From Acidimicrobiaceae bacterium (GTDB lineage: Bacteria; Actinomycetota; Acidimicrobiia; Acidimicrobiales; RAAP-2): a stretch of DNA of 64,000 bases. This document shows, one piece after another, positions 19,909 through 43,358 of this stretch. The stretch is from NCBI GenBank assembly GCA_003170315.1, contig PNAH01000012.1, positions 1 through 64,000 on the forward strand. Direction: 5' to 3'. The notes beneath the pieces are model-generated. The model ran no database searches. It had not been told where the DNA came from and saw only the letters and a program-made list of their open reading frames with translations. The translations under genes were made by a program, and so were the position numbers. Every line of letters starts with the position of its first letter. The stretch's first letter is position 1.

Positions 19909-19938
19909 TCCAATTTCATAGAAGATAGAGTTCCGAAC

Positions 19939-21063
19939 ATGACCGAAGAGCCATTAACGGAAAGCGACGACGTCGATAGTGAAGGTCTTGATCAGGCTGA
20001 TTTGGAGATCATCGATGAGGTTGATCCGGAAGCAGCGCCAGTCAGTTATTCTGGAACGGACTTCGACGTAGAAGGACTGGTTCGACGATTCGAACGTGGT
20101 GACATACTTGTCCCTTCATTTGGTCATAATGATGAAACGATTGAAACAGCAGGCTTTCAGCGACGATTCGTTTGGCGAAGAAGTCAAATGGATCGATTTA
20201 TCGAGTCACTGCTCTTGGAATACCCCATTCCAGGAATATTTTTCGTTCAGCAGCAAGACAAGAAATACTTGATATTGGATGGTCAGCAACGAATCAGGAC
20301 GCTCGTTGCTTTTTATGGTGGTGTTTTTGGGGGGCGCGAATTTGCGCTCCAAAATGTCGCTGACGAATTCAAGACTCTTACATATAAAAGTTTGAGCCCG
20401 AGTCAAAAAAGAACCTTAGATAATACGTTCATTCAGGCGACGATCGTAAAAACCGACGGATCTTCGGTCTCGATGGAGTCGGTATATCAAGTATTTGAGC
20501 GATTGAATTCCGGTGGAACGCAATTAACGCCGCATGAGATTCGAGTGGCGCTTTATGCCGGCCGATTCATCGAATTCTTGACCAAGTTGAACTCCGACCC
20601 TAACTGGAGAACAATTTACGGTCCGGAATCCCCGAGATTGCGCGACCAGGAGTTGATCCTAAGGGTCATTGCGCTTTATTCAAATGAGAAGCCTTACACG
20701 CGACCACTCAAGCGATACCTCAATGATTTCGTTGCCGCTCATCGCGATTTGCAAGATTTCGACGAAGCGAAGATTACGAAGAGATTTTCCGACGCTTCGA
20801 GACTCTTACTGGATGGTCCCGGACCCTCGGCCCTGCGAGGAAAAGGACGGCAAATCAATGCTGCACTGACCGAATCGCTTATGGTCGGTCTTTCACGTCG
20901 ACTTGACAGAACTCCAGAACCAGACTCCAAGTCCGTCACGGACGCTGTCGAGATACTTCTTGCCGATTCCCGGATCGAAGATTCAATATCCCAAGCCACA
21001 GCGAATGAAGAACGCGTTACATTCAGGCTCGATTTAGCTACAAGTATCTTCGCAGATATCTGA
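19939..21063 (+). CDS. DUF262-domain (GmrSD N-terminal/ParB-like) protein
   Basis: The DUF262 core is clear: QRRFVWRRSQMDRFIESLLL, IPGIFFVQ, then LDGQQRIRTLVAF. The DGQQR motif is the hallmark of this ParB/Srx-fold domain, which hydrolyses or senses nucleotides in restriction systems such as GmrSD. A further pattern FERLNSGGTQLTPHEIR is also typical. I chose ATG 19939; the frame runs further upstream into the IS remnant. Eighteen bases separate it from the HEPN gene, suggesting a two-gene unit. Unlike GmrS-GmrD fusions, no DUF1524 HNH domain follows. Confidence 0.85.
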   Translation: MTEEPLTESDDVDSEGLDQADLEIIDEVDPEAAPVSYSGTDFDVEGLVRRFERGDILVPSFGHNDETIETAGFQRRFVWRRSQMDRFIESLLLEYPIPGIFFVQQQDKKYLILDGQQRIRTLVAFYGGVFGGREFALQNVADEFKTLTYKSLSPSQKRTLDNTFIQATIVKTDGSSVSMESVYQVFERLNSGGTQLTPHEIRVALYAGRFIEFLTKLNSDPNWRTIYGPESPRLRDQELILRVIALYSNEKPYTRPLKRYLNDFVAAHRDLQDFDEAKITKRFSDASRLLLDGPGPSALRGKGRQINAALTESLMVGLSRRLDRTPEPDSKSVTDAVEILLADSRIEDSISQATANEERVTFRLDLATSIFADI

Positions 21064-27537: not shown

Positions 27538-27830
27538 GAGTTTCCAAAACTTGAAGCGAATCTTGCGCGTACTCTCCGTCCCGACAGTGCCTCCTCAGCT
27601 TCCTGTAAATCAATCCACCCTCACCTTCCACTGCTGACACTTCTTGTGCTCCACCGACCTTTACTGTCCTTCACGTCTCCGTCCTCGCACCTCCTGATCC
27701 CTGTTTCGCACGCCTCTCCCCGCCCCCTTCGCTTGCTTCTTAAAGTTGTCTCACACGTCTGGCACTTGTGGTTAAACCATGTCGAATTGCATCTGATGCG
27801 ACAGTTGTGGTGCATGCAGGCGCCTTCAAC
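27538..27830. other. Pyrimidine-rich spacer before the relaxase; candidate oriT region
   Basis: No gene is seen here. From 27601 to 27720 the plus strand is about three-quarters pyrimidine (31 purines in 120 bases), with many CCTCC/CTTCC runs, unlike anything nearby. Being immediately upstream of the relaxase start it is a natural place for an origin of transfer, but I cannot identify a nic site or clear inverted repeats. Confidence 0.35.
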
Positions 27831-30800
27831 ATGATGACGATTCGACGCCTCAGCATCGGAGCGGGTTACAAGTACCTGCTCAAATCAATCGCGGTAGGCG
27901 ATGGTCCCGAAGGCACCGACAAGTCGGACCTGGTTCGCTACTACTCAGAAACGGGCACTCCCCCGGGAGTCTTTCTCGGAGCCGGGCTCGCCGGTCTCAA
28001 CAACGGTCTGGGTGTTGCCGCCGGGCAGTCCGTTAGTGCGGAAAACCTCCAGAGGATGCTCCAGGACTGCGCCGATCCGATCACCGGCGACGTGCTCGGA
28101 AGGGTTCCGAGCACAAAGGCCGTCGGTGGTTTTGACTTGACGTTCAGCCCCACGAAGAGTGTCTCTACCGCTTGGGCTCTGGCCGACCGGGAGACCCGCG
28201 AAGTGATCTACCGGTGCCACCAGGCGGCCATCGGCGAGGTCCTCGCCTACGCCGAGCGCGAGGTCTTTCACACACGATCGGGCAGCCAAGGCTGCGTCGA
28301 AGAGGACATTGTGGGCGTCGTCGCCGCGAGCTTCACCCACTTCGATTCCAGGGACGGCGATCCCCAACTCCACGACCACGTCGTTGTGCTCAACCGGGCC
28401 CAGGCCGTTGGCGACGGCGTGTGGCGCACCCTCGACAGTCGCCAGTTGTTCGCCTCAACGGTGATGCTTTCCGAGATGCACCAGGGCGTACTTTCGGACC
28501 TACTGACCGGCGAACTCGGCTGGGACTGGGCGGCCCACACCCGCCGCTCCAGCACCGCCCCGAAGTGGGAAGTGGCCGGCGTGTCGACGCGTCTTATGGA
28601 CGAGTTCTCTCAGCGCACGACCGCCATCGTCGGCGCTAAGGATCGCCTCGTCGCCCAGTTCGAAGTCGATCACCACCGTGCTCCCACCGACGTGGAAGTG
28701 CTCAAACTCCGCCAGACGGCCACCCTCTCTACCCGACGGGCCAAGCGGGACCGGGGCCTCGGAGACCTCACCAAAGAGTGGACCACTCGGGCCACGCCCT
28801 ACCTCGATGATGAACCCATGGCGTGGGTGCACGAGCTGGGTGGCCGAGACGTGCGCGCTTTCACCAGCCAAGAGTTCGCGGACGAGATCTTGCTCGACGT
28901 TGCGAACGCCGCCCTCGATGTCGTCAGCGCCAAGCGCCCGACGTTCTCTCGGGCCAACGTCCAGGCGGAGGTCTTTCGCCAGATGCAGGGTGTTCGCTTC
29001 ACCGAGCCCGCCGAACGGATTCTCAGCGTCACTCGCGCGACCGACCTGGCCGTCGCCCAGGCGCTCCTCATTACCACGCCCAATCTGCAGCACACGCCAC
29101 GTTTCTTGCTTCGGGCCAACGGCACCTCTAAGTTCCAGGGAACCAGTCACTGGCTCTACACCTCGACGACGCTGCTCGACGCCGAAGCACGTCTACTCGA
29201 CGCGGGCCAGCGCCTCGACGCGGCAGTCGTTAGCCGCGCCACGGTGGCGGGCGTTACCGAGCAACGACTGCCCGGGAGAACCTTCAAGCTCTCAAGCGAC
29301 CAGGCCCTCTGCGTCGAGCAGATCACGACTTCGGGCCGGGTCCTGGACGTGCTGGTGGGCCCGGCGGGCACGGGCAAGTCAACGACCATGGCGGGGCTAA
29401 GAGCGGCGTGGGAAGTCGAGCACGGTGCCGGTTTGGTCACCGGCCTCGCGCCCTCGGCGGCGGCCGCCGAAGTCCTGGGCGACGACATGGGCATCGACAC
29501 CGACAATCTCGCCAAGTGGCTCTACGAACACCGCCAGCACGGCCAGCGCTTTCGCGAACTCGAGCAGTTGCGCGAAAAGGTCCGGCTGGTCGGACTCAAA
29601 GGACGAGCACCGAGTCCCGCGCTAGCCCAGAGCATTCGCCAACGCGAGGAAACACTTACTCGCTGGAGTCTTCGCACGGGTCAACTGGTTGTCGTCGACG
29701 AGGCCAGTTTGGCCTCGACCTTCGCACTCGATGAGTTGATGTCGGCCGCTCTCGACGCGCGGGCCAAGGTCGTCCTCGTCGGTGACTGGGCACAGCTCTC
29801 CAGTGTGGACGCCGGGGGAATGTTTCGCACTCTCGTGCGGGATCGGGGTGACGGTGCGGCGACCCTCGCGGACGTTCGCCGCTTCCGGGCCAACTGGGAG
29901 AAGCAGGCCAGCCTCGGGGTCCGCAATGGCTCTAGTTCGGCTTTGGCCACTTACGCGACGCACGGGCGGATCGCGGACGGAACTCGTGACGACATGCTCG
30001 ACGCGCTCTACGCCGCGTGGAAGACCGACACCGACCTCGGCCTGCACTCGTTGATGCTGGCCAGCGACACCGCGACCGTCAACGAACTCAATGTTCGCGC
30101 CCGCGCGCAGCGTGTCGCCAGTGGCGAAGTCATCGAGGAAGGGGTCAACGTGGCTGGTGCCATGACGGCGGGCGTCAATGATCACGTGGTGACGCGTGAG
30201 AACAACCGACGTCTTTCAACGGACACGGGCTGGGTCAAGAACGGTGACGTATGGACCGTATCGGCTACGCACGCCGATGGTTCTATGACCGTCACTCGAG
30301 TCAATGGACACGGCACGGTCCTCTTGCCGGCCAGTTACGTCGCCGAGAACGTCGAACTGGCGTACGCCTCGACGGCCCACCGCGCTCAAGGACGCACCGT
30401 GGACACCGCACACGCGTTCGTCAGTCCCACCACCACTCGCGAAGTACTGTACGTGGCCCTGACACGCGGCTCAGAGTCCAACCATCTCTGGGTGGACACC
30501 CACTACGACCCCGATCCGTCAACCGGCCACGACGGGCTAAACCCGATCCCGAGCGCCCTGGAAGTCCTCGCCGGCGTGCTGCGCCACGAAGGAGCCGACG
30601 TGTCGGCAACTGACATGATCCGTCGGTCCCAGACCGAGTCCATCGCCGCACTCGTTGCCGAATACGACACCATTGTCACCTTGGCCGACGGTGGACGCTG
30701 GGACGAGGTACTCGGCCAGTCGGGACTCAGCGACGCCGAGTTGGTTCAGGCCAAAGCGTCGCCCGCGTACGCAACGCTGCTCGCGCAACTACGAGACGCA

Positions 30801-31382
30801 GAGAACCGGGGCTTCGACATTCATGCCGAACTACCGATGCTGGTCACGGGTCGTTCGTTCGACGACGCCGATGACGTCGCCAGTGTCTTACACCACCGCA
30901 TTGATCGCTACGTGACCGGTTTGGGCTACCCCAGCCCACCGGCAACCGAACTCGTAGCCGGCCTCTTTCCCCGCCCGAGCGGAATTACCGATCCCGACAC
31001 AATCCTCGCGCTCAATGATCGTGCTGCTGCCATTGAGCAGCGAGCCCACGAACTCGCAACGATCGCTATTGAACGTGGTGACGCATGGGTGCAGGGATTC
31101 GGTGACGTTCCCCTGACGGACGAACTGCACGAGCGGTGGGTACTGGAGGTGGCAGCCGGCGTGGCCTATTTAGACCGCTGGAAGGTTGACGATCCCGACA
31201 CAATCCTCGACGATGCTCCGGTCAGCCACGAACAAGAGGCGCAGCGAAGTCGTGTACTGGATGCCGCCCAGCGGGCCCGTGTACTCGCCGTGGCCGAGGA
31301 TACGCCAGTATGTCCAGCGTATGCGCCATCCAGCGATGACCTCTTGGAGCCGCGAAGCTCGAACTTCGGACTCGACCTTTAA
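27831..31382 (+). CDS. traA: MobF relaxase with RecD-like helicase domain (TraA/TrwC type)
   Basis: The N-terminal relaxase domain has FDLTFSPTKSVSTAWAL and the metal triad His170, His181, His183 (SFTHFDSRDGDPQLHDHVVV). Candidate nicking tyrosines sit near the start (GAGYKYLL) and at RYYSETG. A helicase domain follows with LVGPAGTGKSTT near residue 509, VVDEASLAS and YVALTRGSESNHLWVD. MobF proteins nick oriT, remain bound to the DNA and unwind it. Start ATG 27831 is chosen from the conserved MTIRRLSIGAGYKYL. At 1183 aa it is typical. It lies 8 kb away from the secretion operon, and is GC-richer than its neighbours. Confidence 0.92.
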   Translation: MMTIRRLSIGAGYKYLLKSIAVGDGPEGTDKSDLVRYYSETGTPPGVFLGAGLAGLNNGLGVAAGQSVSAENLQRMLQDCADPITGDVLGRVPSTKAVGGFDLTFSPTKSVSTAWALADRETREVIYRCHQAAIGEVLAYAEREVFHTRSGSQGCVEEDIVGVVAASFTHFDSRDGDPQLHDHVVVLNRAQAVGDGVWRTLDSRQLFASTVMLSEMHQGVLSDLLTGELGWDWAAHTRRSSTAPKWEVAGVSTRLMDEFSQRTTAIVGAKDRLVAQFEVDHHRAPTDVEVLKLRQTATLSTRRAKRDRGLGDLTKEWTTRATPYLDDEPMAWVHELGGRDVRAFTSQEFADEILLDVANAALDVVSAKRPTFSRANVQAEVFRQMQGVRFTEPAERILSVTRATDLAVAQALLITTPNLQHTPRFLLRANGTSKFQGTSHWLYTSTTLLDAEARLLDAGQRLDAAVVSRATVAGVTEQRLPGRTFKLSSDQALCVEQITTSGRVLDVLVGPAGTGKSTTMAGLRAAWEVEHGAGLVTGLAPSAAAAEVLGDDMGIDTDNLAKWLYEHRQHGQRFRELEQLREKVRLVGLKGRAPSPALAQSIRQREETLTRWSLRTGQLVVVDEASLASTFALDELMSAALDARAKVVLVGDWAQLSSVDAGGMFRTLVRDRGDGAATLADVRRFRANWEKQASLGVRNGSSSALATYATHGRIADGTRDDMLDALYAAWKTDTDLGLHSLMLASDTATVNELNVRARAQRVASGEVIEEGVNVAGAMTAGVNDHVVTRENNRRLSTDTGWVKNGDVWTVSATHADGSMTVTRVNGHGTVLLPASYVAENVELAYASTAHRAQGRTVDTAHAFVSPTTTREVLYVALTRGSESNHLWVDTHYDPDPSTGHDGLNPIPSALEVLAGVLRHEGADVSATDMIRRSQTESIAALVAEYDTIVTLADGGRWDEVLGQSGLSDAELVQAKASPAYATLLAQLRDAENRGFDIHAELPMLVTGRSFDDADDVASVLHHRIDRYVTGLGYPSPPATELVAGLFPRPSGITDPDTILALNDRAAAIEQRAHELATIAIERGDAWVQGFGDVPLTDELHERWVLEVAAGVAYLDRWKVDDPDTILDDAPVSHEQEAQRSRVLDAAQRARVLAVAEDTPVCPAYAPSSDDLLEPRSSNFGLDL

Positions 31383-31470: not shown

Positions 31471-31538
31471 GGTCGCTCCTCTGTCACTCCTTGAGGGTGT
31501 CAAGGGCGACCTTTTACTTTTCCGTGTGGAGTCTCTTC

Positions 31539-32492
31539 GTGCCAAGTACTTACACTAAGCCATTTGAACATCCAACAGACCTGGTCATGAAACTCCAAGG
31601 CAGAGGCCTGGTCGTTGCGGACGTCCCCTCTGCCATCGATGCGCTCCGGTCAATTGGGTATTACGCGTTAAGCGGCTATTGGTACCCAATGCGCAAGACT
31701 GTCTCCGCGGTACCTCTTCAAAAGAGCGAAGACTTCATTGCTGGCGCGACGTTTGAACACGCACTTCGCATCTTCGAGTTTGACAAAGTACTCCGTGCAT
31801 TCTGTATCGAAGCCCTCGAGCGTATTGAGCGAGTCCTAAAGGTTGAGATTGCACTCAGGGTGGGTCACCTGGACGCCTTCGGGCACACAAACTCAAGTTT
31901 TATGAAAACCTGGTTTACGACGAGGACCAACGCTAAGCCAAAATCAAACCATGACAAGTGGCTAGATCGACACGAGGCAAAATACCGTGCAAGAGGAGAC
32001 ATCCAGATACAGGAATTCATAGGCAAGTATGGCGAACCTCTGCCGATCTGGGTAGCCATAGAGGCAATGGACTTCGGTGACGCATCCACTCTTCTTAATG
32101 GTCTGAACGGATCGCACCAAAACGTGATCGCCCAACGATTTGGCGTGGTCGGTGGATCTGACCTGTCATCAATGATGCGAGCGATGACCCAGATCAGGAA
32201 CACCTGCGCACATCACGATCGATTGTGGAATCGCGTTCACGTAAACCACGCCAGAATGCCGGTTGGCGCTCCTGCGCAGTTTTTCTCTCAGTTACCTTCG
32301 GGCAATCCCAGTTGGAACCGTACGTACCCTGGCCTCTTGGTTCTAGCGTACCTGCACAGCAATGTCCTGCCTAGATCTGACTGGCCTAAGAGACTGGCCC
32401 AGCACCTAGTGACACTTGAGGTCGGCTTCGGCGTCACCGAGAGTTCACTGGGCGCACCAACCGGTTGGCAGTCACATCCAATATGGAACTAG
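31539..32492 (+). CDS. Abi_2 (AbiD/AbiF-like) abortive-infection HEPN protein
   Basis: The N-terminal KPFEHPTDLVMKLQGRGL and the block IDALRSIGYYALSGYWYP are typical of Abi_2 proteins. IFEFDKVLRAFCIEALERIE follows, and the HEPN motif IRNTCAHHDRLWNR (R-N-x3-H) is at the expected place. These proteins stop phage growth by harming the infected cell, probably by RNA cleavage. GTG 31539 has GGAG 7 bases upstream and gives 317 aa; earlier TTG/GTG starts lack a ribosome site. It is transcribed from its own promoter. Confidence 0.88.
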   Translation: MPSTYTKPFEHPTDLVMKLQGRGLVVADVPSAIDALRSIGYYALSGYWYPMRKTVSAVPLQKSEDFIAGATFEHALRIFEFDKVLRAFCIEALERIERVLKVEIALRVGHLDAFGHTNSSFMKTWFTTRTNAKPKSNHDKWLDRHEAKYRARGDIQIQEFIGKYGEPLPIWVAIEAMDFGDASTLLNGLNGSHQNVIAQRFGVVGGSDLSSMMRAMTQIRNTCAHHDRLWNRVHVNHARMPVGAPAQFFSQLPSGNPSWNRTYPGLLVLAYLHSNVLPRSDWPKRLAQHLVTLEVGFGVTESSLGAPTGWQSHPIWN

Positions 32493-32570: not shown

Positions 32571-33410
32571 CTAGTCCAGTGGGGCATTCGTAAATAAGTA
32601 TTCAATCGCGCTTCCGCGTTTCGCCATCTTGCCACCAATTGCATTTCCGCGACTCGTAATTAGCTTTCTATCGCCTCGATCAAAGAGTTCCGCTATTGAA
32701 GAATGGTACGCATTTGTCAAAATGAAATATGCACCTTTTCTTCTTAACAAATCAATCAGATCCGCAAGGCGTTTTTGGTCTTCGAACGCGAAGAGGCGCT
32801 GGTTGTAATTGACGAAACCATTATTGCTGTGCGCAACCGTATAGGGAGGATCGAGAAAGACCAGATCACCCTTGCTAACGCTTTCGCACGCATGTTCGAA
32901 ATCGCAAACCTTTAGTGAAGTCCTCCCTAACCGCTTGGAAATATTTATCAAATGATCTTCAGAAGGAATTTTTGGAGATTCGCGAAATCCATATGGAACG
33001 TTGTATTCTCCCGAACTATTAACTCTGTATAAGCCGTTGAAAGAAGTGTGGTTAAGGAAGATGAATTGCGCTGCCTTCTTTGCCGGATCTTCATACTTGC
33101 GAGCTCTCAGTTTGTAATATTCTTCCGGACTGTTATCAAACCGTTTCAAGAGTCGAGAAATCGTGATTGGATTTGCTTTAACTTGTTTATAGGTTGCAAT
33201 CAACTCGGAATTGAGATCGGACAAGGTCGATTTCCCCGCAGGATTCAACCCGAAAAATATTGATCCTCCTCCAACAAATGGCTCGTAGTAATTGTTGTAA
33301 CTCAATGAGCCAATAATTTCAGGCATGCGACAAAGCAGCCAACGCTTTCCACCTGCCCAACGAAGAAATGGACCGACGCTCTCGTCCTTTTCAGTTTTGA
33401 GCGAACGCAT
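32571..33410 (-). CDS. Dam-type (D12 class) adenine-N6 DNA methyltransferase
   Basis: FLRWAGGKRWLL is the SAM-binding motif of D12-class enzymes. YYEPFVGGGSIFF and the catalytic FLDPPYTVAHSNNGFVNYN (DPPY) complete the pattern, at the usual 279 aa. It methylates adenine in a short site, often GATC, but the site is not predictable here. It is the last gene of the DrmA/DrmB operon, 100 bases after DrmB. By context it marks host DNA as self. The DISARM types described so far use a large DrmMI adenine methylase or a DrmMII cytosine methylase instead. Confidence 0.88.
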   Translation of the reverse strand: MRSLKTEKDESVGPFLRWAGGKRWLLCRMPEIIGSLSYNNYYEPFVGGGSIFFGLNPAGKSTLSDLNSELIATYKQVKANPITISRLLKRFDNSPEEYYKLRARKYEDPAKKAAQFIFLNHTSFNGLYRVNSSGEYNVPYGFRESPKIPSEDHLINISKRLGRTSLKVCDFEHACESVSKGDLVFLDPPYTVAHSNNGFVNYNQRLFAFEDQKRLADLIDLLRRKGAYFILTNAYHSSIAELFDRGDRKLITSRGNAIGGKMAKRGSAIEYLFTNAPLD

Positions 33411-33510
33411 CAGGTAAGAGTAGGCGAATCGGATCTATCGAAGAGGCGGACGTTCGCGACTGTCGAGCGAATCCAATCAGATGCAATGCCATTGATGAAT
33501 GAAGAGATAT

Positions 33511-35424
33511 TCACAGATTCATATATCCGAGGCTTGGGTTTTCGAAACTCCCAACAATCAGGCCACGATCCAAAAAGGTGTTGAAGTGCTCACACGATGT
33601 CTCAGGCAAAAGGGCGCAATTGTGACAAGCTGCGAGATTCAAAGAGTTCGGTCCCTGTCCCTGCTTACCGAACTCCATGCAAACTGGATCTGCGGAGCAG
33701 AACAGTGCCTTGTCGACCGCAGATTCCAGCAGAATTTCCAACCTACCTGGACTCCCGATGCGCACAAGCCCCCCCATACTCCCCTCAGAGTCTCCAGAAG
33801 CGGTGTAAATAAGTATTCCGTTAGCCGATGAAGAACTGCCGTTTAGAGCGCCGCAATATATTCGCTCGCGCAGTGAAGCTGCTGAGTACCCAGATTCGAA
33901 AACCGTTTGATTGATCAGCAAGTGCGCAAGGGTATGGAGGGCAACCAATCTGGGAAGAAATGTCTCGTCAGTGACATTTGGATACAACTTGAGATATGTG
34001 TCAGTCATTTTCAGAGCACTAACTCGGTCGATCACTGCGGCGTTGTTGGACCATTTCCAGAATTCGGGCGTATTTATATCCAAGAAAATTCCCTCACCAA
34101 AAACTTCGTAGGCGGGCAACCAGTGATCCTTTGGCCCTTCGGAACGCCGAAGCATTTTCCGCATCTCACCTAATGGTTTTTCGACTTCGGGACGTATTCG
34201 GCCAAAACCAACCAAAGCCCTTGTCTCTTTTAGCCGATCAATTAGAACAATCTTGGAGAAAGTCTTTCCAACTCTCTCTCCGGAATATTCCTTAAGCCCG
34301 ATCTCCTTCATTTTAAGAACTGAAGAAGTCATTAATTCGCCAGAGACGAAAACTTCGTACTCCGCCGACTTCAAGTCATCCCCGTCTTCAATTTTCGGCG
34401 ACTCTGTAGATGACTCCGACGTGTCGTTCCGGACCGCATCAATAGCTTCAGCAACATCAAACTTTTCAACAAACGGCTTTATCAACACACTTAGGCCTGG
34501 AGATTTTTGTATCATTTGCAGAACTTGTTTGCCCGGAATTCCTTCGGTAGCTTCTAGAAAACTCTGAAATTCGTTCGATTGAAGCGTCTCAAGAAGTTCT
34601 TGCGAAATTCCGGCGACCTTCTTCGGGAGGAAAATAGCGCTCTTGACATACGAGTAATAATTATTGATGGCGCCTTTGATTCCGCCAATCAGCTGTTCGC
34701 CGCATCCTTCACCTTGGAAATCGTCGAGCCACGGTCTTTGTCCGTCGCAAAGAAATTCCTTTTTGCTAGACAATCGCTGGGAAAGATATGTCTTCAATCC
34801 TGCTGTGTCAATGGTTCCGAATATTCGATCAAAACTTCGAAATTTTCCACAACTGCAACGAACTGATTGTGTCGCTAACGTTGCTCCAGTAAACGAAACT
34901 GACAGATCGCCATTACAGGAGGGCTTGTCTTCGTGGTGAACCCATTCTCTAAAGGGGAAATCTCGTATGTGACCTCTACCGCACATCGCTAAAAATTGAA
35001 TCTGCACGACTTTGGAAATGAGGTAGGGCTTCTTCTCTGGATTCTTTGCCTGGCAAAACCGACAACGTACTTGTCCTAGTTCCAATCGGCTCACCTCCAT
35101 CATCTTGTAACACGATTGGCAGAAGTTCCATAACGGAAACCGGAGCGCTGGCAAAGTTACGAAACTATTTGAATTGCCCTTCGATGAGTAGCCGAACGGA
35201 ACTCGAAAGTCAGGTGGCCGTACGAATCCATCAACCCCTAAGGCTTTATTTAGGCGCCACTCATCGGCAATATAGAACTCGCTGGGATCAAACGAAGCTT
35301 CGTCGGAGTCAATCCAATGGTCAAGACCTGCGACGATCGCACTAACCCCATCAACAGAAGTTACGATCGCACCGACACCAAATGGTGCAATCAACTGAGC
35401 TCTTCGGATAGGAAAATCAGACAT
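33511..35424 (-). CDS. drmB: DrmB-like DUF1998 protein
   Basis: N-terminus IRRAQLIAPFGVGAIVTS is characteristic of DrmB. A Cys4 cluster CQSCYKMMEVSRLELGQVRC plus RFC follows. The DUF1998 domain is near the C-terminus (LAHLLINQTVFESGYSAASL, ILIYTASGDSEGSMGGLVRI, CHNCALLPETSCEHFN). In DISARM, DrmB forms a complex with the DrmA helicase and controls DNA access. The start overlaps the DrmA end by 8 bases, and length (637 aa) is normal. Confidence 0.88.
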   Translation of the reverse strand: MSDFPIRRAQLIAPFGVGAIVTSVDGVSAIVAGLDHWIDSDEASFDPSEFYIADEWRLNKALGVDGFVRPPDFRVPFGYSSKGNSNSFVTLPALRFPLWNFCQSCYKMMEVSRLELGQVRCRFCQAKNPEKKPYLISKVVQIQFLAMCGRGHIRDFPFREWVHHEDKPSCNGDLSVSFTGATLATQSVRCSCGKFRSFDRIFGTIDTAGLKTYLSQRLSSKKEFLCDGQRPWLDDFQGEGCGEQLIGGIKGAINNYYSYVKSAIFLPKKVAGISQELLETLQSNEFQSFLEATEGIPGKQVLQMIQKSPGLSVLIKPFVEKFDVAEAIDAVRNDTSESSTESPKIEDGDDLKSAEYEVFVSGELMTSSVLKMKEIGLKEYSGERVGKTFSKIVLIDRLKETRALVGFGRIRPEVEKPLGEMRKMLRRSEGPKDHWLPAYEVFGEGIFLDINTPEFWKWSNNAAVIDRVSALKMTDTYLKLYPNVTDETFLPRLVALHTLAHLLINQTVFESGYSAASLRERIYCGALNGSSSSANGILIYTASGDSEGSMGGLVRIGSPGRLEILLESAVDKALFCSADPVCMEFGKQGQGPNSLNLAACHNCALLPETSCEHFNTFLDRGLIVGSFENPSLGYMNL

Positions 35425-38400
35425 CTGACCTCCTAGATACGTATACGTCGCTCACTTTGATTCGACATTGAGCGTCTACATTTCTTAGACTCCCAGGAGT
35501 TTCCCATGACGCGATCCGCTTGTCTTCGGGTAGATACGATCCGGCGTAGTACATCAAAGGAAGTTGGTCTTCTTTGAAGTCGCCAGTCCATACGGACCTG
35601 CCCCAGTCTTGCCACTCTCTTTTTCTTTTCTTCGCAATCCGGTCGAAGTCATTTACTTGGCCCGGGTCAATTCGAATCATTCGTTCTCTGAGTACGGTGA
35701 CCGCATTATCGAAGTTCATTTCTGGAAACGGGTACGGGTCTGTGCCTTTTCTACACATGTTTCGGATGTACCCAACGATCACACCATGCATAGCCCTTTC
35801 CAGCACGGGCGTCGACCAAGGCGTGACGCTGGTGGGTTCAACTTCCGCATAGAGGCGCTGATGGTAGCTACGAAATTTCTCAAAGTGCGATTTGTCTCTA
35901 GCTCGCCGGGGCGGGTACATAACGACGATTAAGCCTGGGCGATCCTGTGGTCGACGACCGACTCGACCTGATACCTGAATGTACTGAGCCGTCGTTTTCG
36001 GTTGTCCCAAAATCGTCATTAACGACAGTCTTGGAATGTCTATTCCTACTTCAATAATGTTTGAAGCGAGACACACATCAACATGTTTGGAACCGTATTC
36101 AACGAGTAGCTCATCAATTGCCTTTGGCAGATCAGACGATTCAATGCGGCTCGTCAATTCTCTTCGTCGGAAAAGAGTTCGCTTTGATTCACGATCAGTG
36201 ATTCCCATGCGCTCCCATATCGCTTTCAATTGAGCCCTCACATTGATCTGGAGCAATGTAAACGAAGTTCCGATGTCTTGAATTCGATTAAAGAATGCGA
36301 GATTTGTTATCCACGGATCTCTTTGTTCGATCGGGAGTTCGAAGGGTGCTTGTGCCAAGGCCGCCGTTACTCGAACCTGAAGGTCTTGAACAGAGCGTAA
36401 CGACGTACCAATTGCGCCCACATAGAGACGACCTTGGGCCAATCTTCCAGTTTCCAGGTCAATATCGAATTTCGCAAAAAATGAATCTGAAATGTCGATC
36501 CCGTTTGGCGGAAACAGAGTTGAAGTAGTCCTACCGAAAAGACTCAAGATCTGTTCACTTGCGTTTCGGATAGTGGCCGTTGAGCACACGATTTTTGGAC
36601 GCCTGACACCGTCTGGATCTACACGGTTACAAAGTTCTTCAAACAAGCTTTCGTATATTCCAACGACCGATCCTAAAGGCCCGCTTATCAGGTGCAGCTC
36701 ATCTTGGATTATTAAATTTGGCGGCTCAATGCATCTTTCACCTTCGGCATCAATTCCGAATAATTCTCGGATTCGCTCGTTGAAAGCTACCTGGGCAAAT
36801 TTGTCAATGGTGGCGACAATCAGTGACGGCTTTTCATCAAAAATGTCGTCGTCGATCACGAGAGCCGGAATTGGACGTTTTTCTTCGCTGAAAAAGCACT
36901 GCCGGTTTGGACATATGAAAATTACGGTCTCTTGGCCGTGCGTTATTGGACTTCTGGAGATCTCATACCCCGGCCATCGTTCGTCTTTGTCGCCACCTTC
37001 GGCGGGTCCAAGCGAAGTGCTGCAGAGCGGACACCGATTCAGAATGAATCTATGTTCTTTATTGATATTTCCGCGAATTGCTTTGAGTTCTTTACAGGCC
37101 GGCTGTCGATGTAGTGGAGAAAGGCTATCTCCAACCCATATTCCGATGGAAAATCTTGAACCTCCCAAAGACTCGCGATCTCGGATGACTTCCATGCACG
37201 CAATAAGGCTTGCAGCTCGCGTGAATTGCTGAGCCGTAAGTAGCCGCAACGTGTATCTCATTATCGCGCCAACCGCTTGATTGGAGCCGGAAAGACGAGA
37301 ATAAAAGAGCGAAAACGAGATCAAGCCTTGATATGCCTCAGTCTTTCCTCCACCCGTCGGAAAGAAAATTAGGTCCACCGTTTCCCTGTTTGCGTCTTCC
37401 GAGTCAATGGTTGAACAAAGGCTGGTTAAGAGAAATCCAATCTGAAACGGTCGCCATGAACCTTTACCCTCCGACGAAATTGTTGGAGTTTCCTCGACGA
37501 TCAATTCGGAGACTGCGGAATTCATTCTCTTTCTTGAAATTCCACGCGTCATGACTGGAACCTCTAGTTGCTGCATGAGTACTGATTCGTTCGCCAACTC
37601 GAATGCTCGTCGCGCCGTGGGATTCGCCTCGATCAGAGCCAGTCCTTCCTTCATGCGGATCAGCGCGAGTTCACACAAGTCAACGTGCGTCTGAGCAGTC
37701 CGCGACATATCGGAAGCAAGTTTCAAGGTTGCCGTTCGACAGTGTTCGATCCAGTTTTGATAACTAACTATCAAATTCGAAAGACTTGCTACACCCTTGC
37801 TCCCGGGTCCGCAATCCATCAAATCTTGCATCGAAACTCTGATAGGTACGCCTTTAATGTCTCTAATATCAGGCGTAATGCTGGGGACTTCATGAGTGGG
37901 AAAGAAAGTCGCCTTTACGCTGGCGCAACGTTCTTCTTCAATTTCCCACGTCGCTGAACAACCGTGACCGATCGCATATGTTTCGTAGTTTCGGTAAAGC
38001 AATTTGAGAGAACGCGCTTCTTCACTTGTCCGAAGCAATTCACTGTCTTCGCGTTCGGGATATGCAAGAAACCTTGATGGAGTTCCATCGCTTCGAATCA
38101 AAGCTACGTCAAACTCAGTTTGAAATAATCCGAACGAGTTACAATCAGACTGTTGCGAGATGTTCGATACCGCGACGGTCACAAATCGACTCCCGAATTT
38201 GTCCCTCGGCCGGATCAGTATGTTCGCCGTAAGTGTTAAATCGCCCGCATCCGCAGAAACTATTTCCATTGACTTGAATGAGTTGGCAATTTTGACAGTG
38301 GACTCTATCTTTGTTTCAAATTCAATCAAAACGGGTCGTCTTACGTACCACGGGTAGCCAACTACGTTCCCAGCTTCAGCGCCGATGGTTGCGGCTAAAC

Positions 38401-38965
38401 CGCTTACTTCTTCTTCCGGTTCGACCGTTTCACTCGCTTCATCAAGTTCTCTGTCATCCGAACCGAGTTTGCTACTTCGTCCGATGTGTACGTTGAACGA
38501 CTCGTATCTTCCTCCACTTAATGTCAGGAGAATCTTGTGGGTCTCATCATCGATTACAAAAGTCAGTGCGGCCGACTCAGGATCCCTTTCATTCACAGGA
38601 CTTAGATCGAAATCGTCATCTACTTCTTCTGTGAATGACTTGCCGGTGTTGGCAAACACGTCGTCTTCCGACAAATCTTCTTCATTGTCTACTGTCAATA
38701 GCTCAAGTTCTAAAGCCTCATCCGTGTCTGAAGCCTTCGAGTTAGCAGGAAAGAGAACCCCGGTCGCGTATCGACGCATCGGCTTAACACGGTCCGTAAT
38801 AACTTCTTCCCCCGTGCCTTTTTCAATCCATGGGCCCAATGCGGCATTTCGATCCGGAAAGAAAATGGCTTCTTTCAAGTCCAATTCGGTGCCTTGGGGA
38901 TCAGGGCCAATTAACTCACGACGTAGTGCAGCAACTATTACCTGACGTCCGCCATCACTCACCAC
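35417..38965 (-). CDS. drmA: DrmA-like helicase (DISARM core)
   Basis: 1182 aa. The SF2 motif I FFPTGGGKTEAY lies at about residues 535-545, motif II IIQDELHLISG at about 752-762, and the C-terminal helicase motifs SNIIEVGIDIPRLS and QVSGRVGRR near 1030-1060. Two Cys pairs (CPLC near 645, CPNRQC near 685) probably bind zinc between motifs I and II. The long N-terminal part with YATGVLFPAN is the usual DrmA N-terminal region. It would be the ATP-driven engine sensing or loading on invading DNA. Fourth gene of the six-gene operon. Confidence 0.9.
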   Translation of the reverse strand: MVSDGGRQVIVAALRRELIGPDPQGTELDLKEAIFFPDRNAALGPWIEKGTGEEVITDRVKPMRRYATGVLFPANSKASDTDEALELELLTVDNEEDLSEDDVFANTGKSFTEEVDDDFDLSPVNERDPESAALTFVIDDETHKILLTLSGGRYESFNVHIGRSSKLGSDDRELDEASETVEPEEEVSGLAATIGAEAGNVVGYPWYVRRPVLIEFETKIESTVKIANSFKSMEIVSADAGDLTLTANILIRPRDKFGSRFVTVAVSNISQQSDCNSFGLFQTEFDVALIRSDGTPSRFLAYPEREDSELLRTSEEARSLKLLYRNYETYAIGHGCSATWEIEEERCASVKATFFPTHEVPSITPDIRDIKGVPIRVSMQDLMDCGPGSKGVASLSNLIVSYQNWIEHCRTATLKLASDMSRTAQTHVDLCELALIRMKEGLALIEANPTARRAFELANESVLMQQLEVPVMTRGISRKRMNSAVSELIVEETPTISSEGKGSWRPFQIGFLLTSLCSTIDSEDANRETVDLIFFPTGGGKTEAYQGLISFSLFYSRLSGSNQAVGAIMRYTLRLLTAQQFTRAASLIACMEVIRDRESLGGSRFSIGIWVGDSLSPLHRQPACKELKAIRGNINKEHRFILNRCPLCSTSLGPAEGGDKDERWPGYEISRSPITHGQETVIFICPNRQCFFSEEKRPIPALVIDDDIFDEKPSLIVATIDKFAQVAFNERIRELFGIDAEGERCIEPPNLIIQDELHLISGPLGSVVGIYESLFEELCNRVDPDGVRRPKIVCSTATIRNASEQILSLFGRTTSTLFPPNGIDISDSFFAKFDIDLETGRLAQGRLYVGAIGTSLRSVQDLQVRVTAALAQAPFELPIEQRDPWITNLAFFNRIQDIGTSFTLLQINVRAQLKAIWERMGITDRESKRTLFRRRELTSRIESSDLPKAIDELLVEYGSKHVDVCLASNIIEVGIDIPRLSLMTILGQPKTTAQYIQVSGRVGRRPQDRPGLIVVMYPPRRARDKSHFEKFRSYHQRLYAEVEPTSVTPWSTPVLERAMHGVIVGYIRNMCRKGTDPYPFPEMNFDNAVTVLRERMIRIDPGQVNDFDRIAKKRKREWQDWGRSVWTGDFKEDQLPLMYYAGSYLPEDKRIASWETPGSLRNVDAQCRIKVSDVYVSRRSDV

Positions 38966-39000
38966 AACTCTTTTCTATTTTCGCAGCATCGTACGTAAAC

Positions 39001-40680
39001 TTAGATGCTCGATGCCAGTCGCTCCAATATGTCCACTTGATCTGATCGGTGAGCGACTAACACTAGTTTTTCTATAGCCCTAGACACTCCCGCATAAACG
39101 ATGTCTTCTTCTCCACCAATCTCAAAATCATGAATGATGACAAGTTGAGATTCAAGTCCCTTGAATTTACGGGCACTACTTGAAAATATCTTTCGCCGAT
39201 TAGCCATGTCATCAGGTTCTGAAAAATAAAATTTGTCACGCAGGGATTGCGACAACTGTCTCGGATCGAATTCACTCCTCAACCCCAGTACAACCACTTC
39301 TCCTAGTGGAAACGACTTCGTAGCCTCATGGAGCGCGCGCGCCAAAGAACCGATCTTTTCTTCCATAGAGTTGTAATAGTGAAACTGAGTACAGTTGTCA
39401 CGACCTTTAAGCCGAAAACGTCTGTAGATGTCCCTTCTATTACGAATGGAACAAATCAAGTCTCCGACACCTTCTCTGTTACGACAGTTCGTCCACAGCT
39501 GGAATGTCTCCACACCCGGAAAGTTTGTTCGAAATTGATCGCGAGCGTTTTGATCTTGGTAGAAAAGTAGTTGATGAGCGAAGTCGCCAAAGAATCGAAG
39601 CTCGGTGGCACCACACGCAATCGGAAGTAATGAAAGAAAGTTCAACACATTCTCATTCGAGAAGTCTTGGATCTCGTCGACAATTAGAACATCGAATGCA
39701 AAAATTGATTGAGGTCCTTCGAGGAACTCGATCGCTCGCCTCGGAAGCTCTGTATCAAACCAAGCTTCTTCGGGTGAGTCGAAATGAGAATCTGTCATTC
39801 TCAACATCAGTGAGTGATAGGTGCCGCAAAAAACAAGGTTTTCATGTTCTCCTAAAGAGTTCCGGAGGAAACTCGAGAGGTATCGATTTCGACACAGCAT
39901 AATTATTCGCTTGCCTGATTCCAGGGCTCTCCTTGCAGTTTCAAGTGCAAGGAGCGTTTTCCCGGTTCCTGCAGCTCCTTCGAACAAAAGGATGGGGTGT
40001 TCATCAAGTTGATCTAATGCCTCAAATTGCTCCTCGAGGAAATTGTGATACTCCTCGAATCGATTCTGGGTGGTAGCAGCAAGTGATTCAGATACTTCAA
40101 AGTCTCCACGTAGAAAAGTCGCAAGTTTTTCTGCGTCCTCGGCGTCGAAGGCCAACTGATCGGGTTGCCTCGTCAATTTAAGATGGTTCTGCATGGCGAT
40201 AAATGCCGACTTGATAGCGCCGCCGACACCTTGCAAATTGATTTGGGACTTATCGATGCACTGCCATGGCAACCATTCGAGAGAATTTTCGGAGAAATTG
40301 ACGTTGGTAAAAGCAACGACCGACCGCATAGGAGGTACGCGTCTCCCCGCTCTCTTCAATTGATTCGTCAGGCTATACCGATTCAATTCTGCCTGCTCGA
40401 ACGGGCTGCGAGTTGTGGGCGAATCGTTCCCAAGGCGCCAAGTGCCATTTTCTCGAACAATATTCCGATGAGACTTCACCTCGACGACAAGTACTCCAAA
40501 CCCCGGGGCAATCACAACGAAGTCAATTTCCCCTTTTTCTTGTCTGACATGCCGAGAGAGCGTGAGGCTATGTAGCACGATCCAATCCTTCGTGACTTGG
40601 TCATCGCGCAATCCAACGAACACTCTTTTTTCGCCTGGGGGGGCATCGCTCAAAATCCAATTTGGAAGCATTCGCGCCAT
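39001..40680 (-). CDS. NERD-nuclease/UvrD-type helicase fusion
   Basis: The N-terminal NERD domain shows GEKRVFVGL and GEIDFVVIAPGFGVLVVEVKS (the D...E-x-K nuclease pattern). A superfamily-1 helicase follows with LLFEGAAGTGKTLLALETA, DVLIVDEIQDFS (Walker B) and late motifs including SARKFKGLESQLVII. Its ATG overlaps the previous stop as TAATG, and the gene is 35 bases ahead of DrmA, so it belongs to the same operon. It offers a nuclease activity in a locus without the DISARM DrmC nuclease. Confidence 0.87.
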   Translation of the reverse strand: MARMLPNWILSDAPPGEKRVFVGLRDDQVTKDWIVLHSLTLSRHVRQEKGEIDFVVIAPGFGVLVVEVKSHRNIVRENGTWRLGNDSPTTRSPFEQAELNRYSLTNQLKRAGRRVPPMRSVVAFTNVNFSENSLEWLPWQCIDKSQINLQGVGGAIKSAFIAMQNHLKLTRQPDQLAFDAEDAEKLATFLRGDFEVSESLAATTQNRFEEYHNFLEEQFEALDQLDEHPILLFEGAAGTGKTLLALETARRALESGKRIIMLCRNRYLSSFLRNSLGEHENLVFCGTYHSLMLRMTDSHFDSPEEAWFDTELPRRAIEFLEGPQSIFAFDVLIVDEIQDFSNENVLNFLSLLPIACGATELRFFGDFAHQLLFYQDQNARDQFRTNFPGVETFQLWTNCRNREGVGDLICSIRNRRDIYRRFRLKGRDNCTQFHYYNSMEEKIGSLARALHEATKSFPLGEVVVLGLRSEFDPRQLSQSLRDKFYFSEPDDMANRRKIFSSSARKFKGLESQLVIIHDFEIGGEEDIVYAGVSRAIEKLVLVAHRSDQVDILERLASSI

Positions 40681-42194
40681 TAAAGGGCCTCGTCGTTCTT
40701 CGCCACAACATCGATCATTGAAATTGGAATGAGGACGGCAGTTTCTTCAACGTATTCAACTCGAAATACTCCGAGTGCGCCGCAATCTTCAATGTGAATG
40801 GAACTCATTCCGCCTGATTTCACCAAATCGTCTCCGGAGAGGGCGAGTACAGCACTACGAAGGCGAGCAAGAATAACTCCGCCAGCTTTCAAGTGAAGTT
40901 TTCGTATCGCTTGCAAATCCGTCCAGAGTGACTCGGCAGAGTCGATTAAACCAAGATAACGACAAGTGCCCAAAAAATCACTTTTGGAATTCGGTGCGAT
41001 CGAACGAGGATCGTAAACCCAATGCCGAAGATTCTGGACATCAACGCCGTACTCATTCGAGAGCGAGCGTTGGACTGCCTTTAGATTTCCCGTTTCTTCA
41101 ATTCGTTGCTTTAGCGCGTCTTTCCAGTGACTTTGAGATGCGCGAAGCCGAAGAGCACCCAGGCCATCAGCGACACTGTCGATCAGGATCGGCGACGAAC
41201 GACCAATTCTTTCAACAATCAACTCGCCTTCATGCAATTCGCTTGTTTGTCGGGATTCGAGTTCGAGCACGCCTTCAGATGACACCACAACTACCCGGCA
41301 TCGCGAGTCAGGACGTGCACTCATCCACATGTGATGACCGTTGGCCAATCCAACAAACCGAGCCATCTCCATAATTTCGGTCTCGGAATTAGATGGCTCT
41401 GCGCTGGCGCTAATCACTTCCCATTCGCTACGCAACGCTTCCATTTCCATTTCAGGCATCGAGCCAAAGGGCAGTGAGTATCTGACGCTTCGGGAAATCG
41501 CGGAAGAATCGATCAGTCCGTCTACATCGGGCGATTTTCCAAACGGATAGAGAATGAAATGATTCAACGCCGATTTTGGGTCAAGCAAGAATCTCGTATC
41601 AGGCTCACTTCGATACCTCGAAGAAAAATAGAAAGGACTACCTAAATAAACCATTTTGTGTGAAATTTCCTCGTCCAGTAGACGCTTGAATTGAATAACT
41701 CTTAGTGGAAAGTCACAGGATTTCTCCAAATGACTTGTCAGAGGACTCACCCAAAAAGAATCTTTGACAACAACCACAGCTCCTTCTTCCAAAGCTTGGA
41801 GCAACTTCTCGTTGATGGGATTTTCTCTTTCGTGAATGAGTTTCTCCAAAAGAGTCAGAGTGCGTTCTACGATTACGCGAATCGCATTGAAGTCGTCAAG
41901 CGACTGAGCATTTGAGGCGAGAAGTTCAATTGTAGATTGAATACCCATTTCCATTCCTGAGTATTGAAAAGGAAGAGTTGAGAGTTTTGTACGTGCCCGT
42001 TGAACCGGCGCCAGGAACATCTCGTAATATTCGCTCAAAGCTTCTGCGTCACGGACTGCCAACTGAAGCGAGCGACATTCGACCCAGAGTTTCTCTACTT
42101 GGGCTTGCCGAGCAAAATCGAACGAGAATGTCGCGCTATTCCTTGTTTGAAGCGCATGAGTCGTGTCGCCGAGCCTGTTCAATTGATACTCCAA
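40680..42194 (-). CDS. Unknown DISARM-operon protein, possible C-terminal half of DrmE
   Basis: 504 aa. The C-terminal 200 residues are SHWKDALKQRIEETGNLKAV, LRHWVYDPRSIAPNSKSDFL, then LQAIRKLHLKAGGVILARL. This W-x-x-A-L...L-R-x-W...P...D-F...I-R-x-L-H-x-x-A-G pattern resembles the C-terminal region of DrmE, as far as I remember that family. The N-terminal part is helical. Start codon overlaps the 3' end of the previous gene by 16 bases. Together the two proteins (305 + 504 aa) would be about the size of one DrmE. This is an inference. Confidence 0.5.
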   Translation of the reverse strand: MEYQLNRLGDTTHALQTRNSATFSFDFARQAQVEKLWVECRSLQLAVRDAEALSEYYEMFLAPVQRARTKLSTLPFQYSGMEMGIQSTIELLASNAQSLDDFNAIRVIVERTLTLLEKLIHERENPINEKLLQALEEGAVVVVKDSFWVSPLTSHLEKSCDFPLRVIQFKRLLDEEISHKMVYLGSPFYFSSRYRSEPDTRFLLDPKSALNHFILYPFGKSPDVDGLIDSSAISRSVRYSLPFGSMPEMEMEALRSEWEVISASAEPSNSETEIMEMARFVGLANGHHMWMSARPDSRCRVVVVSSEGVLELESRQTSELHEGELIVERIGRSSPILIDSVADGLGALRLRASQSHWKDALKQRIEETGNLKAVQRSLSNEYGVDVQNLRHWVYDPRSIAPNSKSDFLGTCRYLGLIDSAESLWTDLQAIRKLHLKAGGVILARLRSAVLALSGDDLVKSGGMSSIHIEDCGALGVFRVEYVEETAVLIPISMIDVVAKNDEAL

Positions 42195-43093
42195 CCCATA
42201 TATTCAATTCCTTTCGGTAACGAAAGAGTGGGCGCGAGCTTCACGGAGGACCCCCTTGAACGAGTCCTGAAACTTTTAAGACTTGAAAGCACTTCTCTCG
42301 CATGAATGTCCCAGCGATTTAGAACAACAACCGACGTGAACGAGTTGACATAATTTCGTTGACGACTCACTGCTCTGGATCCGTCATAGACCGTGAAATC
42401 CGCTTCGACTTCCAACAAGGACCTCGAAGCAGGGTTGACATATAACGACAAATGATGAGGAGATTCTCTAACGTCGTCGAGATCCTTCACTCGTAGAATG
42501 TCGTCGAGACAACCAATGGTTCCTTCGCACGAGAGTTCTTGCGCCAGAAGATCATTTCGAATCTCTTGATCACCTACTAAACAGATTTCGTTTTTTGATT
42601 GTGTAGTGAGGTCAATGACCCTCCCAGGTGCGAACGCGTCCAAAAAGTTGAAATTTCGAGACAATGGACGAGCGTGGACGAAAGGCGCTCCATCGAACCG
42701 TGAGAACCTGTATTTGTCAAAATATTCCGTGTACCTACTCATCGCCCCTCTCCGGCTACACACATAACTGAATTTGTTTTTCGGGGGGTCCAATTCTGAA
42801 ATTGTTAGTTGACCGAAGGTTCCATGGCTCAGTTGTGAATGAGAATCAAGCCAGGTAATTTGGTCGCCGTCACTGAGCGTTTCAATTGATTCACGAGAAT
42901 AAAAGTCCAACGACTCGAAGCGTGCCGACGCAAATCCGGCGGCCAACATCCCGCTCACCATTCGTGTCCCGGGGAATGTCAAGACATGCCATTTCTCTGT
43001 CTCCAGCGGCTCAGTCGCCAGCCACCGGCCGAATCCATAGACGAACTCGGCCCAAGCAGGCATTGGACTTTTGTCCGCTTGAAGGAGAGCCAT
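42179..43093 (-). CDS. Unknown first gene of the DISARM-like operon
   Basis: 304 aa from ATG 43093 (a GTG lies just before). Contains WHVLTFPGTRMVSGMLAAGFASARF near the N-terminus. FVHARPLSRNFNFLDAFAPG and FTSVVVLNRWDIHAREVL follow later. No known motif for a nuclease, helicase or methylase is visible. It overlaps the next gene by 16 bases, implying coupled translation. There is no ribosome site that settles the start. Its place at the head of the operon matches that of drmE in class 2 DISARM. Confidence 0.5.
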   Translation of the reverse strand: MALLQADKSPMPAWAEFVYGFGRWLATEPLETEKWHVLTFPGTRMVSGMLAAGFASARFESLDFYSRESIETLSDGDQITWLDSHSQLSHGTFGQLTISELDPPKNKFSYVCSRRGAMSRYTEYFDKYRFSRFDGAPFVHARPLSRNFNFLDAFAPGRVIDLTTQSKNEICLVGDQEIRNDLLAQELSCEGTIGCLDDILRVKDLDDVRESPHHLSLYVNPASRSLLEVEADFTVYDGSRAVSRQRNYVNSFTSVVVLNRWDIHAREVLSSLKSFRTRSRGSSVKLAPTLSLPKGIEYMGWSIN

Positions 43094-43358
43094 CACGCAA
43101 AACTAACTAAAACTTGTAACACGCCCCTATGAATAGCGTCGCCCGTCGGGCTCGCCGTAGTTGGAGGCACGAAAAATCTCAAAATGTGCGCATAAATTTG
43201 AACGTAAATGTGATTGCTAATTTTGAGTTAGCTCGGTCCATTGCCCGGATAAAGGGTTCGAGACCAGGGAAGTTAGATGCCACTGAGTAGCCAGTGGCAA
43301 ACAGAAATTATAAATCCGCGAGGAATATTGTTTAGTCAAAACTTCAGGAGGCCCAGAA
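43094..43358. other. Divergent intergenic region with a hairpin
   Basis: AT-rich 265-base spacer between the DISARM-like operon (minus) and a small plus-strand gene. A perfect 7-bp inverted repeat, GCCACTG/CAGTGGC at 43279-43285 and 43292-43298 with a 6-base loop, could be an operator or RNA hairpin. It should hold the operon promoter; I cannot pick a convincing -35/-10 pair. Confidence 0.4.

Follow-up and report, generated by a model that had tools for sequence, protein, structure and literature searches.

How DISARM (defence island system associated with restriction-modification) destroys phage DNA is an open question, and an operon that lacks DrmC but carries a conserved nuclease-helicase within its core bears on it. 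Such an operon lies in the first 64,000 nucleotides of contig PNAH01000012.1 (assembly GCA_003170315.1) of an Acidimicrobiaceae bacterium, a stretch that we call the window. Its six genes, all with open frames, run on the minus strand from 43096 to 32571 in the order open reading frame 1 (ORF1)-ORF2-NERD/superfamily 1 (SF1) helicase-DrmA-DrmB-D12 methylase, the order that a preliminary description of the stretch had given. That description called the operon atypical; is it a one-off? Our data point instead to a widespread and apparently undescribed DrmE-NERD lineage of DISARM. The locus is probably a DrmE-type (class-2-like) DISARM subtype, which would combine a DrmAB core, a helicase-like DrmE, a NERD nuclease motor and an exchangeable self-marking methylase.

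The DISARM core itself is genuine by profile matches. DrmA (35417..38965, 1182 amino acids (aa)) is a superfamily 2 (SF2) helicase of the YprA family that matches the PADLOC DrmA model with 590 bits (E 2e-177) and NCBIfam DISARM_DrmAS with 758 bits, under the equivalog cut-off of 950, and it keeps the motifs PTGGGKT (position 536), DELH (755) and QVSGRVGR (997). DrmB (33511..35424, 637 aa) is encoded separately and adjacently, as in DISARM, and matches the PADLOC model (E 2e-66), NCBIfam DrmB_fam (396 bits, cut-off 240) and Pfam MZB (E 1.5e-7), the MZB/DUF1998 signature. The gene before drmA (39001..40680, 559 aa) encodes a NERD (PD-(D/E)xK) nuclease fused to an SF1 helicase (Pfam NERD PF08378, E 9e-17), with a nearly full-length match to the PADLOC profile RTasNERD-Hel (E 9.5e-27). 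According to the coordinates, ORF1 and ORF2 overlap by 16 bp, ORF2 and the NERD gene by 1 bp, and drmA and drmB by 8 bp; gaps of 35 bp and 100 bp separate NERD from drmA and drmB from the D12 gene, respectively. The Pfam and PADLOC scans of the window covered eight proteins, namely those of the operon and its neighbours.

To place the operon, we scanned an 84,980-species collection with a DrmA alignment (a single-sequence DrmA scan of genome contigs gave no match) and examined the best 80 of 109 relatives. Two loci (L067 and L062) were removed as identical to L016 and L051, leaving 78 distinct ones, and 16 of these were removed for too little flank (less than 5 kb upstream or 2.2 kb downstream of DrmA); L022 and L027, which coincide with L009 and L008, were counted once. 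Among the resulting 62 loci, 34 carry a split DrmE with NERD, 10 a fused DrmE with NERD, one (L037) a partly called DrmE with NERD, three a split DrmE without NERD, and 14 no DrmE. DrmE is therefore present in 48 loci, 46 by sequence and two (L064 and L068) by size and place. In 45 of these (43/46 by sequence) the gene just before drmA, on the same strand, encodes a helicase with a NERD domain, which supports the membership of this gene in the operon. Moreover, the order ORF1-ORF2-NERD-DrmA-DrmB is kept in 32/32 loci with all five core genes at E<1e-20, and every junction is within 120 bp in 27 of them, so the grouping is not due to chance. The 48 DrmE loci comprise 29 from Actinomycetota, seven from Pseudomonadota, five from Bacteroidota, two from Bacillota and five others. 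The NERD helicase and DrmE, in one gene or two, therefore recur together without drmC (45/48, DrmC in none), and D12 does not recur with them (1/48).

A search with the NCBIfam model DrmE_fam, which is independent of DrmA, gave the same picture. The cut-off was passed in 5/348 genomes of the phylum of L061 and in 1/296 genomes of the phylum of the window, and a NERD helicase adjoins drmE in all six cases; four of these loci (L109, L120, L121 and L122) lie outside the DrmA scan, and the genomes of L061 and L051 are very likely among the five. Searches with tblastn gave no match for DrmA in phages, nor for ORF2 or the fused DrmE of L050 in plasmids.

No DrmC was found. Our DrmC profile, built from six DrmC proteins annotated on class-1 plasmids, recovered each left-out member at E <= 2.7e-36. 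It detected DrmC in 0/48 DrmE loci, it matched only the reference DrmCs at E <= 10 among the ORFs of window 20-60 kb and of loci L008-L100, and it matched nothing at E <= 1e-5 in L109 and L120-L123; Pfam and PADLOC gave no PLD (phospholipase D) match among the operon proteins. In L041, a locus without DrmE, a 1052-aa protein reached E 0.006-0.01 in two leave-one-out runs. DrmC is annotated in six of the eight class-1 plasmid loci read, and the other two show none. The lack of a drmC/PLD gene in the operon, noted in the preliminary description, is thus supported, and the comparison of neighbourhoods did not reveal a drmC that is normally present and lost only here. As candidates for the DrmC of the system, the PLD genes at 96-101 kb of the window's contig were rejected, since they lie >50 kb away and the 400-aa protein among them scores 46 bits (E 9e-15) against the DrmC profile, compared with at least 299 for the references. 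PLD genes occur in 49/50 genomes of relatives among the matches listed, unassigned to loci, and were not used in judging DrmC absence.

The locus might nevertheless be an ordinary DISARM minus drmC, perhaps with a PLD nuclease elsewhere, and the NERD helicase and the methylase might be unrelated defence-island neighbours. That NERD immediately precedes drmA in 45/48 DrmE loci, across several phyla and with DrmC in none, argues against a recent loss of drmC and makes this explanation improbable, although the available text of PMC9142583 reports that DrmC is often missing and proposes host PLD proteins as stand-ins, four PLD matches lie outside the operon in the host genome, and genes for AbiD, GmrSD_N and TrwC are also in the window. 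In addition, no NERD-domain gene was seen beside drmA in the eight class-1 plasmid loci examined.

The two genes at the start of the operon, listed as unknown in the preliminary description, are by profile comparison a single DrmE split in two. Neither matched a family at accepted levels in Pfam, PADLOC or NCBIfam, and an AvrPphF-like effector was rejected for ORF1 (E 0.022 fails the cut-off). ORF2 (40680..42194, 504 aa), the C-terminal two thirds, aligned by hhalign with columns 329-862 of the fused DrmE-family profile (99.5%, E 5e-23), and ORF1 (42179..43096, 305 aa), the N-terminal third, aligned collinearly over 236 columns with the first 310 residues of the family (78.5%, E 1.7e-5). Ten decoys, two from the middle and C-terminus of DrmE and eight from the DrmA, DrmB, NERD and 5-methylcytosine (5mC) methylase profiles, gave ORF1 at most 0.7%. 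In Bacteroidota, Bacillota and others, a single 834-925 aa protein takes the place of ORF1 and ORF2; all nine fused proteins scanned match DrmE_fam, the five of L109 and L120-L123 all exceed its cut-off, and a separate ORF1 was found in none of ten fused-DrmE loci. DrmE_fam is also matched at E <= 0.001 by 5/39 members of the ORF2 family, and the ORF2 of L008 matches positions 642-830 of 838 (E 2.8e-8, 32 bits, cut-off 80). In 296 genomes of the window's phylum, an ORF2 search found two relatives besides the window, each of which carries this five-gene core. The DrmE of DISARM class 2 is therefore represented at the family level, as a split protein recognized by profile-profile comparison, and two orphan families are accounted for.

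The DrmA trees separate these forms. In an unrooted 43-row tree (LG+C20), a chosen subset of 94 rows that leaves out L095, L097, L107 and L120 among others, the split-DrmE branch (support 100/99), the fused-DrmE branch (100/98) and class 1 (100/99) are distinct. The split side also holds L105, whose upstream genes lie outside the available sequence, and the fused side also holds L041, with no DrmE called, and L054, without NERD. The unrooted tree of all 94 rows, made with a faster method, gave the same main groups. Since the split loci share one supported branch, the DrmE split need have occurred only once.

What, then, would cut the DNA? E51, D53, E67, K69 and Q96 of the NERD protein, together with 14 helicase positions, are identical in 45/45 aligned NERD helicases (window plus 44 loci, leaving out L013, near-copies L008/L027, L009/L022, L023, L035, L042 and L058), and we take E51, D53, E67 and K69 to be the PD-(D/E)xK pattern. 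A strict letter pattern of the site was found in 36 of 45 sequences. Of the nine others, eight belong to the alignment, where their four residues are identical, and the ninth is the broken gene of L013.

We propose that DrmA and DrmB would act as a DNA-loading helicase core that opens invading DNA, possibly within a larger complex, and that DrmE, here two polypeptides without recognizable catalytic motifs, probably serves as a scaffold or DNA-structure sensor that bridges the core and the NERD-SF1 helicase. The latter would be a built-in nuclease motor that cuts the DNA engaged by DrmAB, and no DrmC would then be needed. In the available text of PMC9142583, the DrmAB complex is reported to load on 5'-overhang DNA with an ATPase activity that is lowered by methylation, DrmC is described as dispensable and as frequently lacking in DISARM operons, and a recruited or alternative nuclease is proposed. 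In the lineage described here, that recruited nuclease would be encoded within the operon. That the NERD protein replaces DrmC, as the preliminary description proposed, does not follow from this: it sits between drmE and drmA and not after drmB, and DrmC is in any case reported as dispensable and often absent (same source). The host genome would be marked as self by a DNA methylase that is separate and exchangeable, in this operon an N6-adenine enzyme probably acting on GATC.

It is conceivable, though we think it doubtful, that the NERD helicase is instead a backup toxin for abortive infection, which would destroy host DNA if the DISARM core were blocked. Such a suicidal role has been proposed for the NERD nucleases of PglW and DndF (in the available parts of PMC12839542 and PMC10853773); those are domains fused to sensor proteins, whereas the NERD domain here is fused to an SF1 helicase. 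The complete conservation of the checked motif residues and the near-universal presence of the gene in the core operon would fit a primary effector better.

The methylase is the variable part of the operon. The D12 gene (32571..33410, 279 aa) encodes a predicted DpnM/Dam-like N6-adenine methylase (MethyltransfD12, PF02086, E 3e-43) with the motifs FVGGG and DPPY kept, so that the operon does have a DNA methylase, one that belongs to neither the DrmMI nor the DrmMII class, as the preliminary description had noted. Its best PDB match is DpnM 2dpm (E 9e-52), in which the block NGLYRVN...NVPYG is aligned and conserved. This Dam/DpnM block presumably contacts GATC, and self-marking by GATC methylation is a plausible prediction for the enzyme. 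No other D12 gene was found in the host genome, and this one is likely the self-marking gene.

Most relatives differ. Within ~8 kb and on either strand, 38 of the 48 DrmE loci have a called 5mC methylase (co-directional in 30), one has D12, and nine have no methylase call; no 5mC methylase was called beside the window operon, so that the DrmMII of class 2 is lacking there. With a one-sequence D12 profile, D12 beside such an operon was seen in three loci, the window, L071 and L074; in L071 the gene is co-directional directly after drmB, as in the window, and in L074 it is divergent and cut by the contig end. The three proteins are mutually 33-35% identical, which suggests repeated swaps. Given the 5mC methylases near most relatives and the single D12 among 48 loci, the Dam/DpnM-like enzyme would be a local swap. 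The methylase module thus appears exchangeable, and a Dam-type methylase is not a defining part of the system. The 100-bp gap after drmB and the rarity of D12 beside such operons (three loci, by the one-sequence profile) would also suit a separate restriction-modification or orphan Dam-like function outside the operon. We consider this possible but on balance unlikely, since a methylase was called near 39/48 DrmE loci, D12 follows drmB directly and in the same direction in the window as well as in L071, it is the sole D12 found in the genome, and neither AbiD nor TrwC, the genes that come next, is a restriction nuclease. A Vsr-type nuclease gene was observed near the operon in 15 of the 48 DrmE loci, for example L022 (=L009), L050 and L057; Vsr often accompanies 5mC methylases, repairing deaminated sites.

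The predicted folds offer a guess at what DrmE might be. The AlphaFold2 models of ORF1 and ORF2 have mean predicted local distance difference test values of 84.7 and 83.1, respectively, and that of ORF2 has a predicted template modelling score of 0.50. ORF1 is predicted to be a RecA-like lobe without a recognizable Walker A; its best VIA-align match is the RecA1 lobe of a DEAD-box helicase (Z 9.2, root-mean-square deviation 3.7 over 169 residues). ORF2 is predicted to consist of a helical bundle and a RecA2-like lobe, followed by beta strands and a helical C-terminus, and residues 19-229 align with the insert and RecA2 of Hef (Z 10.8, deviation 3.5 over 191 residues); entries containing MDA5, Dicer and XPF are within about 1 Z of Hef, and the RecA2 lobe of Vasa scores Z 10.5 over 116 residues. 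A Walker A pattern was found in 1/33 ORF1, 1/39 ORF2 and 1/9 fused sequences, and DExH-like letters, counted irrespective of position, in 3, 6 and 8, respectively; none of these sequences has a motif VI pattern. Suggestively, then, the two proteins, folded separately, may resemble the paired lobes of a single dead SF2 helicase. XPF is a dead helicase with a PD-(D/E)xK-type nuclease. By analogy, DrmE might be a dead Hef/XPF/RIG-I-like SF2 helicase that forms, with NERD in trans, an XPF-like structure-specific endonuclease cutting the forked phage DNA opened by DrmAB. We rate this idea as unlikely, yet if true it would supply the missing nuclease step of DrmC-less DISARM.

Several points weigh against the picture presented so far. 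The anti-phage activity of this arrangement is a prediction from its genes, and the census, being the best 80 of 109 relatives, represents the DrmAs most like that of the window and not DISARM at large. The assignment of ORF1 to the N-terminus of DrmE has the 78.5% profile match and the position of the gene as its whole basis, and earlier comparisons with fewer sequences gave 0.6%, 30% and 50%; window ORF2 matches neither NCBIfam DrmE_fam nor the equivalog NF038323. The 925-aa proteins next to the NERD helicase in L064 and L068 (5466-8243, plus strand), from Allomuricauda and Pseudozobellia, match neither DrmE_fam nor our own DrmE profile and are therefore counted as DrmE only by size and place; they may be very divergent DrmE proteins or something else. 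In the 94-row tree, L120, with fused DrmE and NERD, groups with L097, L107 and class 1. NERD is not a strict requirement: 3/48 DrmE loci lack it (L014, L029 and L056), L054, L094 and L095 do not have it beside drmA, and in L013 the gene is broken into two frames. In 9/48 DrmE loci there was no methylase call nearby, and the host PLD proteins, one of which scores 46 bits against the DrmC profile, allow a DrmC-like protein in trans. As to the fold, Foldseek results for ORF1 and ORF2 were weak and matches modest overall; unrelated helix bundles also score within 1 Z of Hef (7dgu, Z 10.4; 1x8z, Z 10.0; ORF2 residues 30-124), so the helical part of ORF2 is uninformative alone. The fold lists named no close homologue of ORF1 or ORF2, which we take as showing nothing.

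Where does the operon stand among described systems? Since DrmA, DrmB and a DrmE-family protein are kept and DrmC is not, we place it within DISARM as a variant. DISARM class 2 (PADLOC type II: DrmA, DrmB, DrmC, DrmE and DrmMII) shares DrmA, DrmB and a DrmE-family protein, and with most relatives also a nearby 5mC methylase, that of L008 scoring 380 bits to DrmMII and 397 to MTase_II; the window differs in having no DrmC, an added NERD-SF1 helicase, a D12 in place of the 5mC methylase, and a DrmE made as two pieces that falls outside the NCBIfam DISARM_DrmE equivalog model. DISARM class 1 (drmD-drmMI-drmA-drmB-drmC) shares the separate adjacent genes for DrmA and DrmB, but no DrmD, PglX-like DrmMI or DrmC was found here and DrmA is on a separate branch; DrmD and DrmMI were absent from the eight proteins scanned and from the genes beside the operon searched with DrmD and PglX profiles.

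TALON (Bell et al. 2025 preprint, PMC12458937) shares a YprA-family helicase and a NERD nuclease, but in the text available its genes comprise an ARMADA-like helicase, TPR-CSD and TBP, unlike the separate DISARM-type DrmA and DrmB here; the Pfam scan of the eight window proteins found no TPR, CSD or TBP domain. ARMADA type II shares a YprA-like helicase, a methylase and a UvrD/GajB-like helicase in one operon, but has BrxHII-like and PglX-like proteins and a RelE-fused helicase, of which there were none among the proteins scanned. The PADLOC models RTasNERD-Hel and C3a187 NERD+UvrD share the NERD-SF1 helicase architecture but stem from systems other than this operon, and the scan of eight proteins from the operon and its surroundings identified no reverse transcriptase. 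The published PADLOC definitions of DISARM type I and type II, as stated in the available part of PMC9252829, both require DrmC, and the gene set would fail both. The main text of the YprA-family survey (PMC12458937) names PLD nucleases for DISARM and NERD for TALON only, and does not mention DrmE. The searched literature held no description of a DISARM with a NERD or DrmE gene set of this kind, though Ofir et al. 2018 or the supplements may list one.

A second DISARM-like layout was seen in Actinomycetes (L076, L080, L083, L085, L086 and L088-L091), with a 1545-1678 aa protein before drmA-drmB and, except in L091, also an SF1-type helicase without a NERD domain. The large protein of L090, the one scanned, has an SF2 helicase at its C-terminus, and DrmD and a PglX-like methylase are also present in L076 and in L099, the latter without the large protein. 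Loci L076-L091 (except L077 and L078) were dropped as members of the NERD lineage because their helicases lack NERD, except in L079, L082 and L084, the only DrmE-less loci in this range detected by a NERD-only profile, and because their DrmAs fall near class 1. A plasmid of Lactiplantibacillus plantarum (L097; 5847-8252, plus strand) carries a very small DISARM-like set of a 5mC methylase, an 801-aa protein, DrmA and DrmB, with no DrmC or NERD called and no DrmE_fam match for the 801-aa protein, whose three matches in plasmids are all from its own species. In L110, a 1106-aa protein (9331-12651, minus strand) with a DrmE-like C-terminus (60 bits, under the cut-off) precedes a divergent DrmA/DrmB pair, with NERD and DrmC not called. 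The fused-DrmE operons of L109, L120-L122 and L061 are of the same NERD type and lie near 5mC methylases. L123 and L051 are very likely one 20,978-base contig, with DrmA-DrmB (L051) and 5mC-DrmE-NERD (L123) at opposite ends, a layout that may reflect a circular element or an assembly cut.

In the window itself, an AbiD/Abi_2 gene (31491-32492, plus strand; PF07751, E 6e-45) adjoins the operon and a TrwC-type relaxase-helicase gene (27768-31382, plus strand; PF08751, E 1e-71) lies beside it, which suggests a mobile defence island. Further away, 19816-21063 (plus strand) encodes a protein with a GmrSD N-terminal domain (PF03235, E 6e-29), possibly a component of a type IV restriction system.

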